64,000 bases of DNA from an uncultured Clostridia bacterium (GTDB lineage Bacteria; Bacillota; Clostridia; Christensenellales; Borkfalkiaceae): the NCBI GenBank assembly GCA_947624215.1, contig CANQJJ010000003.1, forward strand, positions 1 to 64,000, in the 5' to 3' direction. The position numbers and the translations under genes were made by a program. The notes beneath the pieces were generated by a model that did not search any database, had not been told where the DNA came from, and saw only the letters and a list, made by a program, of their open reading frames with translations. Shown here piece after piece: positions 22,938 through 49,567 of this stretch (positions are counted from its first letter, which is position 1; every line of letters starts with the position of its first letter).

Positions 22938-22964
22938 GTTTGAAGACCGCCCCGCGGGTGGTAT
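22938..22964 (+). promoter_or_regulatory. Candidate sigma-B-type promoter of the partner-switching operon
   Basis: GTTTGA (22938-22943), 12 bases, GGGTGGTAT (22956-22964) resembles the sigma-B consensus GTTTAA-N12-15-GGGTAT. Auto-regulation of a sigB operon is usual, which makes the position plausible, but the -10 fit is imperfect. Confidence 0.4.
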
Positions 22965-23006
22965 AAAAAAATAAGCCGTGCAGGGATGTGCGGCGGGGAG
23001 GTAACT

Positions 23007-23306
23007 ATGCAGGAGATGACCTTGCTCTCGCGCGAGCCGCTTTGCTTCGGGCTTGCGGGGGAGATCGACGCGGGCAACTGCGACGAATTCTATGCCGAAG
23101 TTTTGGGCAATTACAGCGGGGGCGACCTCGTCTTTTCGTGCGCAAAGCTCGAATTCATCGACTCCACGACGCTCGGCACGCTCGTCAAGCTCAAAAAACA
23201 TGTCGCGGAGCAGGGCGGAAGGCTCATTCTCCGCCGTCTGCAACCCCGCCTCAAAAAGCTCTTTGTCATCTGTGCCCTCGATAAAGTGATGGAGATAGAG
23301 GAATGA
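23007..23306 (+). CDS. Anti-sigma factor antagonist (STAS domain, RsbV/SpoIIAA-like)
   Basis: The 99-residue protein is a single STAS domain. The phosphorylatable serine sits in the canonical context LEFIDSTTLGTLVKL (S53). When unphosphorylated such proteins bind the anti-sigma kinase and free the sigma factor. The start is the ATG at 23007 with GGGGAGG seven bases upstream; an earlier in-frame start lacks a site. First gene of a tight four-gene operon; it overlaps the next gene by four bases. Confidence 0.88.
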   Translation: MQEMTLLSREPLCFGLAGEIDAGNCDEFYAEVLGNYSGGDLVFSCAKLEFIDSTTLGTLVKLKKHVAEQGGRLILRRLQPRLKKLFVICALDKVMEIEE

Positions 23307-23656
23307 AAGATCTCATGAAGTTGGAGCTCCCGCTCGGGGGCGAGATCATGACGACGGTGCGGCTCACGACGGGCGGCATCTGTTCGCTCGCGGGCATGGA
23401 CCTCGACGCCAGCGAAGACTGCAAGGTCTGCGTCACGGAGAGCCTGCTCCTTCTGATGCATGCGGGATACCGCCGCGCGGCCGTCTCGTTTGCCGAGGAA
23501 GAGGGTCTGTGTATCTCACTTTCGGGCATGGGTATGGCGGATGACGCCGAAGACGTCCCCGAGGACGAGATCTCCGAGGCTCTGCTCGAGGCCTTGGCGG
23601 CGCAGGTCGCCTTTGAAAAACGCGGGCGGCTCGTCGGCGTGACGATACGGTTCTAA
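23303..23656 (+). CDS. Degenerate anti-sigma kinase-like protein (RsbW/SpoIIAB position)
   Basis: The 117-residue protein occupies the place of RsbW/SpoIIAB between the antagonist and sigma genes. The segment ASEDCKVCVTESLLLLMHAGY aligns with the GHKL N-box (E-x3-N-x2-xHAY), but the Asn that coordinates Mg-ATP is replaced by Leu (residue 50). No GxG lid motif is visible, and the middle is acidic (DDAEDVPEDE). It may bind the sigma factor or antagonist without kinase activity. Four-base overlap with the upstream gene; two bases before the sigma gene. Confidence 0.65.
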   Translation: MKDLMKLELPLGGEIMTTVRLTTGGICSLAGMDLDASEDCKVCVTESLLLLMHAGYRRAAVSFAEEEGLCISLSGMGMADDAEDVPEDEISEALLEALAAQVAFEKRGRLVGVTIRF

Positions 23657-23658
23657 GC

Positions 23659-24390
23659 ATGCAAGAGGCAGAACTCTTTACAACCTACGCTGCCACGCGG
23701 GACGTTTCCCTCAGAAACGAGATCGTGGAGCGCTATCTCTACATCGCCGAGATGCTCGCGAAGAAGTTCGTGGGGCGCGGTGTGGAATACGACGACCTCT
23801 ACCAAGTCGCATCGCTCGCACTCATCAAGGGTGTCGAGCGTTTTGACGTGTCGCAGGGGGTGAAATTCTCCACCTTCATCACGCCGACCATCACGGGCGA
23901 GATCAAGAATTACTTCCGCGACCGCTCCCGCCTCATTCACCTGCCGCGGCGGGTCAACGAGCTCAAACTTCGCATCCGCAAGACGGCGGAAGAACTGCTC
24001 GCAGAGACTGGCAAACAGCCCACGGCGCGGGAGATCGCCGCACGGCTCAACGTCAGCGAGGAAGAAGTGGTGAGCATTGCCGAAGCGGGGGGCGTGGTCT
24101 CCCTCGACAGCCCCGTGCCCGACAGCGAGCGCGGAGGGGACTTTCACGAGGTCGTGGCCGCCGCAGACGATGGGGCGCTCGAAGCAGTCGAACAGCGCGA
24201 CGTGCTCGAATCTGCCATGAAGGGACTGCGGCCCGCCGAGCGAAAGGTCATCGAATACCGCTACTTAGACGGCCTCTCGCAGACGGAGACGGCAAAGCGG
24301 TTGGGCGTGTCCCAGATGTACGTCTCCCGCCTCGAACGCCGCGTGCTCGAAAAGATGCGCGAAACGTTGAAAAAGGGGATGGCGGAATGA
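23659..24390 (+). CDS. sigB: RNA polymerase sigma factor of the sigma-B/F/G family
   Basis: The 243-residue factor has region 2 (YDDLYQVASLALIKGVERFD, then KFSTFITPTITGEIKNYFRD), a sigma-B-like region 3 start (HLPRRVNELK), and region 4 with LSQTETAKRLGVSQMYVSRL. The GEIKNYFRDRSRLIHLPRR stretch is closer to sigma-B than to the sporulation factors sigma-F and sigma-G, so a general-stress role is favoured; the symbol is by analogy. It overlaps the downstream ATPase gene by four bases. Confidence 0.82.
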   Translation: MQEAELFTTYAATRDVSLRNEIVERYLYIAEMLAKKFVGRGVEYDDLYQVASLALIKGVERFDVSQGVKFSTFITPTITGEIKNYFRDRSRLIHLPRRVNELKLRIRKTAEELLAETGKQPTAREIAARLNVSEEEVVSIAEAGGVVSLDSPVPDSERGGDFHEVVAAADDGALEAVEQRDVLESAMKGLRPAERKVIEYRYLDGLSQTETAKRLGVSQMYVSRLERRVLEKMRETLKKGMAE

Positions 24391-24731
24391 GAGTGGATAG
24401 TTGGGAAGAAGCTCTCGGCGCCGTTGCCGTCATGTGCCGCTCGCTCACGGGACTGCCCGAGAGCACGGTGTTCAATGCCCGTCTCGTTGCCTGCGAACTG
24501 CTCTCCAATGCCGTAAAATACGGCGGGGGATGCGCACGGTTTACGTTCAGCCGCGTGGGTGATACGGTGCGGCTTGCCGTACGCGGACAGGTGCCCTTCG
24601 ACCCGCCTCCCGCATGCACGCCGCCCGACCCCGCCGCGGAGAACGGCAGGGGGCTCTACCTCGTCGACGCACTCGCCGACCGCCGCGATTACAGCGACGA
24701 AGAGGGTATCATCGTCTTCATCGGAACGTAA
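24387..24731 (+). CDS. Anti-sigma GHKL kinase (RsbW-like)
   Basis: The 114-residue protein is a compact HATPase_c domain. The N-box is intact (ACELLSNAVKYGG, Asn41) and the G-box NGRGLYLVDALAD is present at about 86-98. It is the likely active partner-switching kinase of the operon, placed after the sigma gene instead of before it. Translationally coupled to the sigma gene by a four-base overlap. No terminator is clear; repeat DNA begins within 20 bp. Confidence 0.8.
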   Translation: MRVDSWEEALGAVAVMCRSLTGLPESTVFNARLVACELLSNAVKYGGGCARFTFSRVGDTVRLAVRGQVPFDPPPACTPPDPAAENGRGLYLVDALADRRDYSDEEGIIVFIGT

Positions 24732-25312
24732 ATTCGTGTTCTAAATACGTCATGTTGAGCTGTGTCGACCGCGCGAGGCTTCTATTTGTGATTCTAAGCG
24801 CGACACGAGCCGTAGGCGAAGTAAACATCACCTTATTATAAGACTGCGGTGACCCTTCGACTTTGCTCAGGGTGACGTATTTGGAATGCTTTGGTCGTTC
24901 ACACGGGCTTGGGCGCGGTGTGGTAAGCTGTCATACCGAGGGCGGCGCCCTTGCCGCGTGAGTGTATCCCCTTATACGGAGTCCGTGTGGTGGTAAGCGC
25001 GTCATCCTGAGCCGAAATGGCAATACGGAGTCCAATGCGGCTGTCTTCGAAGGATCCCGAAGAACGAAGTCCGACTATCGTTCACACGGGCTTGGGCGTA
25101 GTAAGATTCTTCGCGGATGAGCAGTTCGCTTAGATCCAAGCCGATGCGGCTCAGAATGACGCTTCGATTGAGCTTGGTCGGGCAGAAATGGCGCTCGGGT
25201 TGGGCTCGGGCGCGAAACCCCTCAGGCCCGCAAAGGGCCGCGGGCCAGCTCCCCTTACAGGGGCGCCAAGGAGCGCTCGCACGAGCTTGGGCAAGTCATA
25301 CAAAACAACCAT
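24732..25312. repeat. Intergenic repeat mosaic 4
   Basis: No gene is visible. Contents: an ATGTT/AACAT unit whose loop carries a TACTTCGC-type element (24750-24832), an ACCCT/AGGGT unit (24846-24874), a GGTATGAC-type unit (24930-24972), an ATCCT/AGGAT unit (24995-25078), an ATTCT/AGAAT unit (25098-25165), and a two-hairpin element with GGCCCGC/GCGGGCC arms (25217-25280). Confidence 0.8.
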
Positions 25313-25361: not shown

Positions 25362-27533
25362 TCAGTTGCCGTAGTCGAAGATCTTGTCGAGCAGTTCGGG
25401 CGAGATGTACTTGTTGAACTGCGGGATCGCACCGAACACGCGGCCGAAGAACTCTTGGTTGTCGCCGCCGATGACGTATGTAGGAAGACCGAAGTCACCC
25501 TTCACATGGTTGATGAAGAGGGCATGGAACTCGCTCTTTTCATCCTCGGTGAGCGTCTCGATGAAGGAATCGTAGCCGTTGGCGTATTTGCCCGTCTGCT
25601 CTGCCTGTGCAGGCGCTGCCTGTGCTGCCTGTGCGGGCTGAGCGGGCGCACCCTGCGGTGCGGACTCGTTCTCTTCCGCCATGGCCCTTGCCATCGCGAG
25701 CATCTGGCGCTCGAAAGCGCTGAGCGTGTTCTCCTGGATGGGCTCGGGTTGAGGTGCGGGAGCGGGTGCGGGAGCAGGTGCCGGCTGAGGCTCGGGTTGA
25801 GGTGCAGGTGCGGGAGCGGGCTCGGGCTGAGGCTCGGGTTGAGGTGCAGGTGCAGGCTCGGGCTGAGGCTGAGGCTCGGGTTGAGGCGCGGGCTGGGGCT
25901 CAGGCTGAGGTGCGGGTGCGGGCAATGCCTGCTGCTGCGGTTGCGCTACGATCTGCTGCACGGGCTGGAGATAGGGAACCGGCACGGGCTGAGGATATAC
26001 GGGCGGCATCTGCAGGATCACAACGGGAGGCGTTGCGGGAGCCTGTTGCAACACGATGGGCGCGGGAGCGGGTGCAGGCTGAGGCGCGGGCTGCTGGAAA
26101 GGAGGCATCGGGCGCATCGGGGGCTGCATCCCCATACCCATTCCCATTCCCATCCCCATGGGCATAGGCATCGGGATCGGCATAGGCATCGGCATGGGCA
26201 TCGGTTGAGGTGCGGGTGCGGGCGCGGCCTGCGGCGTAGGAACAGGGAACGGCATCGGCTGCACAACGGGTTGGATCACCGGCTGCTGAGGCTGAGGCGC
26301 GGGCTGGCTGTAAGGCGCATAGGGCTGCGGCGCGGGGTAAGGTTGCGGCTGAGGTGCCGGTTGGTTATAAGGATACGCGGGTGCGGGCGCGGCATCATAA
26401 TTATCCGATGTTGCCGCAGGTGCGGGCGCGTAAGGCGCTTCATACCCGTCGCCGTCACGGTCGATGGAATCCTTGCTGAGCTGGGCGGCTACGTTGCGCG
26501 CATTGCGGTCGCGGCGGCGCTTGCAGATCAGGAGGGAATTGAAGATGCCGAACAGGAAGGCGAGAAGGGAGGCGCCGAGAAGGGCGATGTTGCCGTATAC
26601 CGCAAAGTGTGCGCGATGGAAGAGTGCCCAACGGCCGCCCTCAAGAGGCATCTTCACGATGATGACGACGTTGAAGACGATGACCGCAAGGAGCAGGAGC
26701 GCATAGCGGACTGCATCGAAGGGATAGAAGCGCTTCGCGTTCAAACGGAGCACGCTGAGCACGAGGTTGAATGTAAGCAACCCGATGAGCACCGCCACGG
26801 AAATGCGGATGACCATGTCCCCGATCTTGCCGCCGATGAAGTCATTGGCATAGTTGATGAAGATCGAGTCGCCCTTCGCGCAGAAGATGGCCGCGCATGC
26901 CGCCATCAAAAGCACGCTGAGCACATTGAAGAGGCCCACGAACTTTCTGCGGCAGATGGAGACGACGAGAAGGATGAGGAGGGTAGCGCCGCCCACGATG
27001 AGCGTGGGGAAGTCAAGCGCAAACGTCACCCCGAGCAGTGTAAGCGAGGCAGTATCCGTGTTTGTGCCGTAGAAGAGCACGGTGACGAATACCCAGAGGT
27101 ATGCGAGCGCTACGAGGTAGCCCGAGAGCATGGCGCAATTTCTCGTGGTCTTCCCCTTGCCGATGCAGGCAGCGATGCCGAGCACGAGCGAGAGCACGAC
27201 GGCAAGCGCGAGGAAGAGGACCTGTGCAAGGCCGAGCAGTTCGAGCGCGATGTAGCCGAAGGATTGGCCGGAAAATGCGAGATGACCGCCCGTGAAGAAG
27301 TATTTCAGCATCGAAAAGATGTAGCCGAACAGCGTTCCTTTCACGAGAGTGCCCGCGTTGAGGGCGATCCCACTTTGCGCATACAGGGTTGCTCCGCTGT
27401 GCGCGAGGAGACCGACATAGTTCCCCAAATAGCCGAGGAAGAGGCCGGCAAGCGCAAGCAGGAAGAAGACGATCGCGAGGACGCGATATCTTACCGTGGG
27501 GACCGAGCCCGCCTTGTAAACAGTGTTGCTCAT
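25362..27533 (-). CDS. Membrane protein with very long Pro/Ala/Gln-rich linker and conserved C-terminal domain
   Basis: No named family is recognised. Residues 1 to about 320 hold eight or so membrane segments, in several helix pairs. Residues of about 330-650 are low-complexity: Pro-Ala-Gln-Pro repeats, a Pro-Met tract (PMPMPMPMPIPMPMPMG), Gly-Met repeats and Pro-Glu-Pro-Gln repeats. The last 70 residues form a folded-looking domain (GYDSFIETLTEDEKSEF, KGDFGLPTYVIGGDNQEFF, then YISPELLDKIFDYGN). I associate similar endings with other membrane proteins of related Clostridia. The layout suggests a membrane anchor displaying a small cytosolic domain on a flexible arm. A perfect sigma-A promoter drives it alone. 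Confidence 0.75.
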   Translation of the reverse strand: MSNTVYKAGSVPTVRYRVLAIVFFLLALAGLFLGYLGNYVGLLAHSGATLYAQSGIALNAGTLVKGTLFGYIFSMLKYFFTGGHLAFSGQSFGYIALELLGLAQVLFLALAVVLSLVLGIAACIGKGKTTRNCAMLSGYLVALAYLWVFVTVLFYGTNTDTASLTLLGVTFALDFPTLIVGGATLLILLVVSICRRKFVGLFNVLSVLLMAACAAIFCAKGDSIFINYANDFIGGKIGDMVIRISVAVLIGLLTFNLVLSVLRLNAKRFYPFDAVRYALLLLAVIVFNVVIIVKMPLEGGRWALFHRAHFAVYGNIALLGASLLAFLFGIFNSLLICKRRRDRNARNVAAQLSKDSIDRDGDGYEAPYAPAPAATSDNYDAAPAPAYPYNQPAPQPQPYPAPQPYAPYSQPAPQPQQPVIQPVVQPMPFPVPTPQAAPAPAPQPMPMPMPMPIPMPMPMGMGMGMGMGMQPPMRPMPPFQQPAPQPAPAPAPIVLQQAPATPPVVILQMPPVYPQPVPVPYLQPVQQIVAQPQQQALPAPAPQPEPQPAPQPEPQPQPEPAPAPQPEPQPEPAPAPAPQPEPQPAPAPAPAPAPQPEPIQENTLSAFERQMLAMARAMAEENESAPQGAPAQPAQAAQAAPAQAEQTGKYANGYDSFIETLTEDEKSEFHALFINHVKGDFGLPTYVIGGDNQEFFGRVFGAIPQFNKYISPELLDKIFDYGN

Positions 27534-47905: not shown

Positions 47906-48192
47906 GGGGAACGACGCCCTTGCCACCGAGTGTATCTCCCCTCATACGAAGTCCGACTGCTTGGGAAAGAGACCAAGCATTCTAAATACGTCATGTTGAG
48001 CCTGTCGAAACATCACCTTGTTTATAATGCGGTGACCCTTCGACTTTGCTCAGGGTGACGTTATTGGAATGCCTTAATCGCTCACACGAAACTTGGTCGT
48101 AGCAAGATTCCTTCGCGGATGGGCAGTTCGCTCTCATTCATGCTCTGCTGGCTCAGAATGACGCTTCGATTGAGCTTGTTCGCTTACCCGAA

Positions 48193-48813: not shown

Positions 48814-49567
48814 AGTGCGGTGGTGGTAAGCTGTCATACCGAAGCCCCATAAGGGGCTGAGTGTATCCCCTCAAACGAAGTCCGCGTTGTGGGAAACAGA
48901 CGCGCCTCTTGCTGTCCCTGTAAGGGAAAGTACCCCGAGGCCCTTGCGAGGGGGGAAAGGGTTTCTCCTCCTCATCCGCCCTACGGGCACCTTCCCCAAA
49001 AGGGAAGGCAAGGAGACGCTCACACGGAGTCCGTGTTGTGGTAAGCGCGTCATCCTGAGGCGGAATGATAGAACGGAGTCCAACGCGGCTGTCCCCGAAG
49101 GATCCCGAAGAACGAAGTCCGACTGTTTGATGAACAGACCATGCGCTATAATTACGTCATGCTGAACGTAGTTGAAGCATCACCTTGTTTATAATGCGGT
49201 GACCCTTCGACTTTGCTCAGGGTGACGTAATTGGAAATGCCTTAATCGCTCACACGGGCTTTGGCGTAGCAAGATTCCTTCGCGGATGAGCAGTTCGCTC
49301 AAATCCAAACCGTTACAGCTCAGAATGACGCGCGCGAGGCGCGCGGGGCGTATACACGGGCCTCGTCGCCAAGGGTCGCTTACACGGGCCCCGTCGCCAC
49401 CCCACCCCCCTACCCCCCTCCCATGGAGGGGGCATGTGCGGGATGAGCTTCTCTTCTCCCATGGAGGGGGCACGCGCAGATTGGGCTTGGGCGCCTCCCC
49501 TTACAGGGGCGCCAAGGGGTCGCTCTCTCGGGCTCGGGCGCCAAGGGGGAGACGTGTAGCGTGCGGA

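Follow-up and report, generated by a model that had tools for sequence, protein, structure and literature searches.

The SigB and SigF modules of Bacillus (rsbV-rsbW-sigB and spoIIAA-spoIIAB-sigF) comprise an antagonist, an RsbW-type protein, a sigma factor, and PP2C phosphatases, with RsbW and SpoIIAB each acting as both anti-sigma factor and kinase. In an uncultured gut bacterium, by contrast, the sigma gene is flanked by two relatives of its usual inhibitor-kinase, which raises the question of what each of the two contributes. The locus lies in a stretch of 64,000 nucleotides that was analyzed as a whole (hereafter, the window) and resembles the Bacillus modules in gene order, protein folds, the antagonist Ser, and PP2C phosphatases. 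Its features are as follows:

22938–22964, + strand: SigB-type promoter-like site, GTTTGA-15-TGGTAT, upstream of V; the motif is kept in the genus.
23007–23306 (alternative start 22986), + strand: V, STAS antagonist (PF01740, E 4.7e-15; TIGR00377, E 2.2e-15).
23303–23656, + strand: W1, degenerate RsbW-like protein (TIGR01924, E 5.3e-6 over residues 2–52).
23659–24390, + strand: SigB/F/G-family sigma factor (TIGR02980 SigBFG, E 2.1e-68).
24387–24731, + strand: W2, short GHKL Ser-kinase-like protein (PF13581, E 6.9e-12).

The family matches confirmed the order given by the first-pass annotation, i.e., antagonist, RsbW-position protein, sigma factor, and second GHKL protein. The junctions are as tight as it had described: V and W1 overlap by 4 nt, W1 and the sigma gene are 2 nt apart, and the sigma gene and W2 overlap by 4 nt. 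Position 22938, which it had given as the start, is the first base of the promoter-like site but not the start of a gene. V is a single-domain STAS anti-anti-sigma factor, and the sigma factor falls slightly short of the TIGR02980 cut-off (230.4 vs 234.35 bits). A STAS antagonist with its Ser, an RsbW-fold protein, and a SigB/F/G sigma factor are hence present in one operon.

Pairwise searches of 61 genomes of the genus found W1 in 58 and W2 in 58. The order V-W1-sigma-W2 stands on one contig in 57 of the 61, two of these loci (L105 and L106) being cut by a contig end, and it recurs in many clostridial families, as a survey of related genomes proposed with the first-pass annotation brought out. 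In the exceptions, the contig ends before W2 (G050) or begins inside the sigma gene (G060), and neither W1 nor W2 was found in G042 and G058 (77 and 63% complete). NCBI assigns the genus to the class Clostridia, and we infer the name Gallimonas from a W1 relative: among the best 80 of 117 W1 relatives in named genomes, one belongs to Candidatus Gallimonas gallistercoris, and the other 79 belong to Clostridia, Clostridiales, Bacillota, or Firmicutes records.

Two further observations concern the remainder of the window. A 23-base dispersed repeat occurs at 24854–24876, 48037–48059, 49204–49226, and 2041–2063 (three of these are exact and one carries 3 mismatches; chance predicts none). On the − strand, 25362–27533 is a 723-aa frame whose central part is very long and rich in Pro, Gln, and Ala; it had no Pfam match up to E 1.

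W1 has lost its ATP-site motifs. Leu50 occupies the N-box Asn position, as had been noted, with the intact SpoIIAB of the same genome (N-box, G1, and G2 all present) as the control. Across 58 genus rows, this column reads Leu in 53, Ile in 3, Met in 1, and Val in 1, so that 0/58 have an Asn where the N-box requires it, as is also true of 0/8 outgroup rows. The G1 Asp and the G2 glycines are also gone, leaving W1 without the motif set of a bifunctional RsbW. It matched no Pfam GHKL/ATPase model, and its TIGR01924 score (25.9 bits) is below the RsbW equivalog cut-off (155.05). The AlphaFold model of W1 (mean pLDDT 95.7) has B. subtilis RsbW as its nearest structural match (6m36_A; Z 16.6, rmsd 1.3, 99 residues aligned), with SpoIIAB (1tid_A, Z 16.0) on a level. 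The W1 profile also matched solved anti-SigF chains over most of the length of those chains (8jzt, E 3.5e-4; 8ih8, E 4e-4). In the W1-profile alignment, 8jzt, which by its title we take to be the mycobacterial anti-SigF protein, has an Arg at the N-box Asn position.

What W1 has kept may point to binding. The Arg matching SpoIIAB R20 and the N-box Glu (Arg20 and Glu46) are present in 58/58 genus rows. R20, T49, and E104 of SpoIIAB are essential to bind SpoIIAA, according to the part of the source available (PMC4166321). The T49 position of W1 is Leu in 58/58 genus rows, and the E104 position falls inside a shortened, unconserved stretch. W1 thus retains only R20 of the three residues named in that part of the source, and V-W1 binding may differ from SpoIIAA-SpoIIAB binding. 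The W1 frame is open in 58/58 genus loci. Relative to the closest two named loci, L244 and L245, dN/dS is 0.17 and 0.21 for W1, 0.07 and 0.10 for V, 0.09 and 0.10 for the sigma gene, and 0.32 and 0.19 for W2, values that are rough because dS is mostly near 1 and reaches 1.9 in one W2 pair. Judged from these sequence comparisons, W1 is under purifying selection, and we predict that it is a non-catalytic anti-sigma factor.

W2 presents a different picture. In the window, it has Glu37, the N-box Asn41, and GRGL in G2, with Gly67 at the G1 Asp position. The statement that this second protein has intact N- and G-boxes was therefore right for the N-box Asn and the GRGL but not for the G1 Asp, which is found in only 1/58 genus rows (G28 S20 C5 A2 E2 D1). 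Glu, Asn, and GRG are present in 58/58 genus rows, and Glu37, Asn41, and GRG are invariant in a 50-row alignment; the T49 column is Ser or Thr in 42/58. As the G1 Asp is missing in 57/58, W2 of the window genome may not be an active kinase. The Asp is present in 5/6 outgroup W2. W2 passes PF13581 (45.9 vs a cut-off of 27.4 bits), a match that says nothing on activity because the motif-less W1 of another family (L209, 42.5 bits) passes as well. In the AlphaFold model of W2 (mean pLDDT 94.5), ranking by VIA-align 2 placed RsbW (6m36_C; Z 13.7, rmsd 2.0, 95 aligned) level at the top with other RsbW, UsfX (8ih8_C), and SpoIIAB chains; Foldseek by itself gave Leptospira LvrC (9qih) as the top match (E 1.1e-5). 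W2 is predicted to be a separate kinase of V.

The putative substrate is well conserved. Ser53 of V, previously named as the phosphorylation position, is Ser in 57/57 genus rows with a residue there. As a test for W2 as a kinase, this Ser is non-discriminating, as it is kept with and without W2. Upstream of V, the motif GTTT[GC]A-N13-15-NG[GT]TA was found in 46/57 genus loci, against a mean of 0.1 and a maximum of 1 in 200 mononucleotide shuffles and 0/169 windows inside the sigma gene; a loose form occurs in 6/84 loci outside family f1, the family of the genus. Its conservation makes positive autoregulation of the operon possible and suggests that in the Gallimonas genus the sigma factor may activate its own operon. 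A genome-wide search gave 16 sites, compared to 19 for the reversed control, i.e., no enrichment, and the motif did not delineate a regulon. Of the longest frames following 15 of the 16 sites, only three begin with an ATG no more than 50 nt away. These are the operon itself, a LemA-family gene (site G000:C7:31449, L395, 34 nt before the ATG), and an HslV-like gene (PF00227; site G000:C52:2632, L405, 40 nt before the ATG). The latter two are possible sigma targets.

The rest of the circuit was sought in the window genome assembly, which is 94.63% complete. The STAS proteins found there are V and SpoIIAA, and the SpoIIE-type phosphatases are SpoIIE and a PAS-PP2C of 352 aa, two of each kind. In the PF13581 search, only SpoIIAB and W2 scored above the cut-off, with a histidine kinase below it. 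A PP2C phosphatase gene is therefore present in the genome. The PAS-PP2C, which is encoded outside the operon, has a match in 59/61 genus genomes, is full-length in 57, and occurs in 35/35 near-complete genomes; it is the best candidate phosphatase of V. Its gene (G000:C22, L384, 1495–2553, − strand) encodes several Cys in the N-terminal part, and identity is 56–80% across the full-length genus matches.

To place the operon in a wider frame, we used a 15-row W1 alignment as the query against 248 order, 291 class, and 299 phylum genomes (overlapping sets). The 81 new loci taken from the searches and 60 regions taken by place, mostly next best matches, are part of all matches; 140/141 of them carry a W1-type gene with a sigma gene behind it. 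We dropped two duplicates and set aside 18 loci whose sigma score was low (SpoIIAB-SigF type); a nineteenth, L343, was retained by hand. The resulting set holds 120 SigB-type loci from 36 family codes. The RsbW-position protein has all three ATP motifs in 18 loci, lacks every one of them in 99, and has one or two left in the other 3, counts that are not natural frequencies since a W1-based profile found the loci and degenerate forms are over-represented. The R20 position is independent of the ATP motifs, with Arg in 119/119 RsbW-position rows with a residue there and one gap.

The occurrence of W2 follows that of the motifs. Behind the sigma gene, W2 was found in 63 of the 99 loci with a motif-less W1, not in 32, and 4 were undecided at a contig or locus end. 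It was found in 0/3 mixed loci and in 0/17 decidable loci among the 18 intact ones (1 undecided). All 63 W2-bearing loci, spread over 18/36 family codes, lack every ATP motif in W1. Of these 63 W2 proteins, 62 have the N-box Asn, 62 the GRG, and 46 the G1 Asp; all three motifs are present in 44/48 outside family f1, and the G1 Asp is absent in 14/15 within it. The R20 column of W2, where the alignment is uncertain, is Arg in 20/63 and Lys in 11/63. By the motif and R20 columns, W1 keeps one docking residue and has lost the ATP motifs, and W2 is mostly the reverse. A second, more sensitive profile used in the search for more W2 returned only two non-significant matches (E 3.5 and 5.4). Families f4 and f23 (e.g., L159, L337, and L345) keep W1 and the sigma gene, and neither V nor W2 was found there; these loci are possibly a bare anti-sigma/sigma pair. 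Other frames after these genes include one of 207 aa after the sigma gene in family f63, a candidate RsbX, and similar frames of ~395–430 aa, HlyD-like by eye, after W2 in six outgroup loci (L154–L158 and L160).

The history of this association rests on few events. On a sigma tree of 119 rows, built by a quick method and carrying long-branch warnings, degeneracy takes 4 changes and W2 takes 6. The 59 W2-bearing rows all fall inside two groups (22 and 66 rows) that also contain families without W2. Independent pairs number 3 on starred branches and 4 on all; W2 differs in the same direction in 0.7 on average, in the opposite direction in none, and not at all in 2.3, so few that significance is unreachable. 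The W1-W2 association reflects a handful of changes on the sigma tree at most and does not amount to many independent observations. The simplest reading of the tree would be a single old origin with later losses of W2. In a GHKL tree, 31/31 W2 rows (30 of the 63 plus the window) form one clade (SH-aLRT 100), which stands apart from RsbW, W1, and SpoIIAB; the tree is poorly resolved, and UsfX is a single fragment on a long branch there. Because its clade is separate, W2 appears to be a long-standing family distinct from the others and not a recent duplicate of W1.

Collectively, we somewhat favor a partner-switching module in which the two jobs of RsbW are carried by two proteins, with W1 as the anti-sigma factor and W2 as the kinase of V, a reading of the comparative sequence data that we hold to be probable, if modestly so. 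W1, its ATP-site motifs gone, would bind and silence the SigB-type sigma factor, and W2 would phosphorylate V on Ser53, such that V could not remove W1. Under stress, a PP2C phosphatase, likely the PAS-PP2C, would dephosphorylate V, which would then bind W1 and free the sigma factor, and the latter may also activate its own operon. We are least sure of the kinase step in the Gallimonas genus because W2 there lacks the G1 Asp. The 32 decidable loci that have a motif-less W1 and no W2 after the sigma gene do not fit the proposed division.

An experimental precedent exists in Mycobacterium smegmatis, where, in the part of the report available, RsbW1 binds SigF and shows no kinase activity, and RsbW2, with N, G1, and G2 present, is the kinase of RsfB, acting on Ser63, and fails to bind SigF (PMC7693655). 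The motif pattern of W1 and W2, here taken from sequence, agrees with that of RsbW1 and RsbW2. As far as that account goes, however, the mycobacterial genes lie at separate loci with rsbW2 paired with rsfB, whereas here all are in one operon with W2 after the sigma gene; moreover, RsbW2 has G1, and one lineage of the clostridial W2 no longer has the G1 Asp. The idea in the first-pass annotation that a non-catalytic first kinase is served by an active second one thus fits the comparative pattern and this precedent, but it is weaker in the present genus, where W2 lacks the G1 Asp. Its "two-step partner switch" found no support; the data fit a one-step switch with two functions on two proteins.

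Four other explanations, and a variant of one of them, were weighed against this split. W1 and W2 may instead form an obligate heterodimer that replaces the RsbW homodimer, W1 supplying the sigma-binding face and W2 the ATP site of one split anti-sigma kinase. We regard this as unlikely, yet deserving of attention: both models have the RsbW fold, the genes share one operon in which neighbors overlap or almost touch, and RsbW and SpoIIAB assemble into dimers or larger forms by way of the beta1 strand, as far as the available text of PMC10120452 goes. W1, without two of the three V-contact residues, would also profit from a partner. A weak objection comes from the models, in which the first strand appears to span only residues 2–3 in W2 but is long in W1 (residues 2–10).

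The missing G1 Asp opens a different path for Gallimonas, in which neither W1 nor W2 is a kinase. W2 would be a second pseudo-enzyme, e.g., one that reads a ligand and regulates W1 or V, and phosphorylation of V would fall to a different kinase (SpoIIAB, for instance) or be almost absent. The loss of the Asp in 57/58 genus W2 and 14/15 family f1 loci agrees with this, as does the dN of W2, the highest of the four genes in 3/3 pairs; however, a dead site would not need the invariant Glu37, Asn41, and GRG, and the V Ser is kept in 57/57 genus rows. As a whole, this joint proposal seems to us quite unlikely. Further along the same path, and decidedly doubtful in our view, both RsbW-like proteins of Gallimonas would be catalytically dead and a phosphorylation switch would have turned into a binding-only one: the kinase job would have moved from W1 to W2, W2 would then have given up ATP hydrolysis and become a ligand-reading partner, and other clostridial families would remain at the intermediate, split stage.

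It is very improbable that W2 resembles RsbT, the B. subtilis switch protein, and acts on a phosphatase instead of V. W2 is a small stand-alone GHKL protein and the PAS-PP2C phosphatase is kept throughout the genus, but with only two STAS proteins in the assembly, RsbR/RsbS-type partners are not evident, and the NCBIfam matches include none named RsbT (a library that may hold no such model). That W1 is a decaying gene whose two jobs were both taken over by W2 deserves hardly any credence, since the lost N-box Asn, G1, and G2 motifs stand against a frame open in 58/58 loci, a dN/dS of 0.17–0.21, invariant Arg20 and Glu46, and 99/120 loci of the wide set in the same motif-less state.

The split between W1 and W2 can also be set beside the SigB operon of a better-known clostridium. 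In the portions of the papers available, Clostridioides difficile RsbV is phosphorylated on Ser57 (PMC8730811), its RsbW is described as an anti-sigma factor and kinase in one, and its sigB operon is described without a SigB promoter (PMC10210984). As described there, the two share a clostridial SigB operon with a phosphorylatable RsbV Ser, but C. difficile has the one-protein RsbW and no SigB promoter, whereas the window operon has W1 and W2 and a promoter-like site. Among the matches listed in a search of the open-access literature, we found no description of a degenerate or split RsbW in Clostridia. The separation of anti-sigma factor and kinase is already known in principle from mycobacteria, by the available part of PMC7693655; what is new is its one-operon form, spread over 18 family codes of Clostridia, and the Gallimonas lineage, in which the ATP site of W2 is itself changing.

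The arrangement suggests an old division of labor between a "binder" and a "kinase" across clostridial families. Should this hold, the textbook picture of one protein that is both anti-sigma factor and kinase would break down in a good share of the Clostridia, where the gene preceding the sigma gene would be mislabeled as "RsbW, serine-protein kinase". The loci form a series of states, from an intact RsbW through the split pair and W1 without W2 to loci where the antagonist is gone too, which would allow the coupling of kinase and sigma binding to be tested, and the genus would show the second kinase in the course of change.
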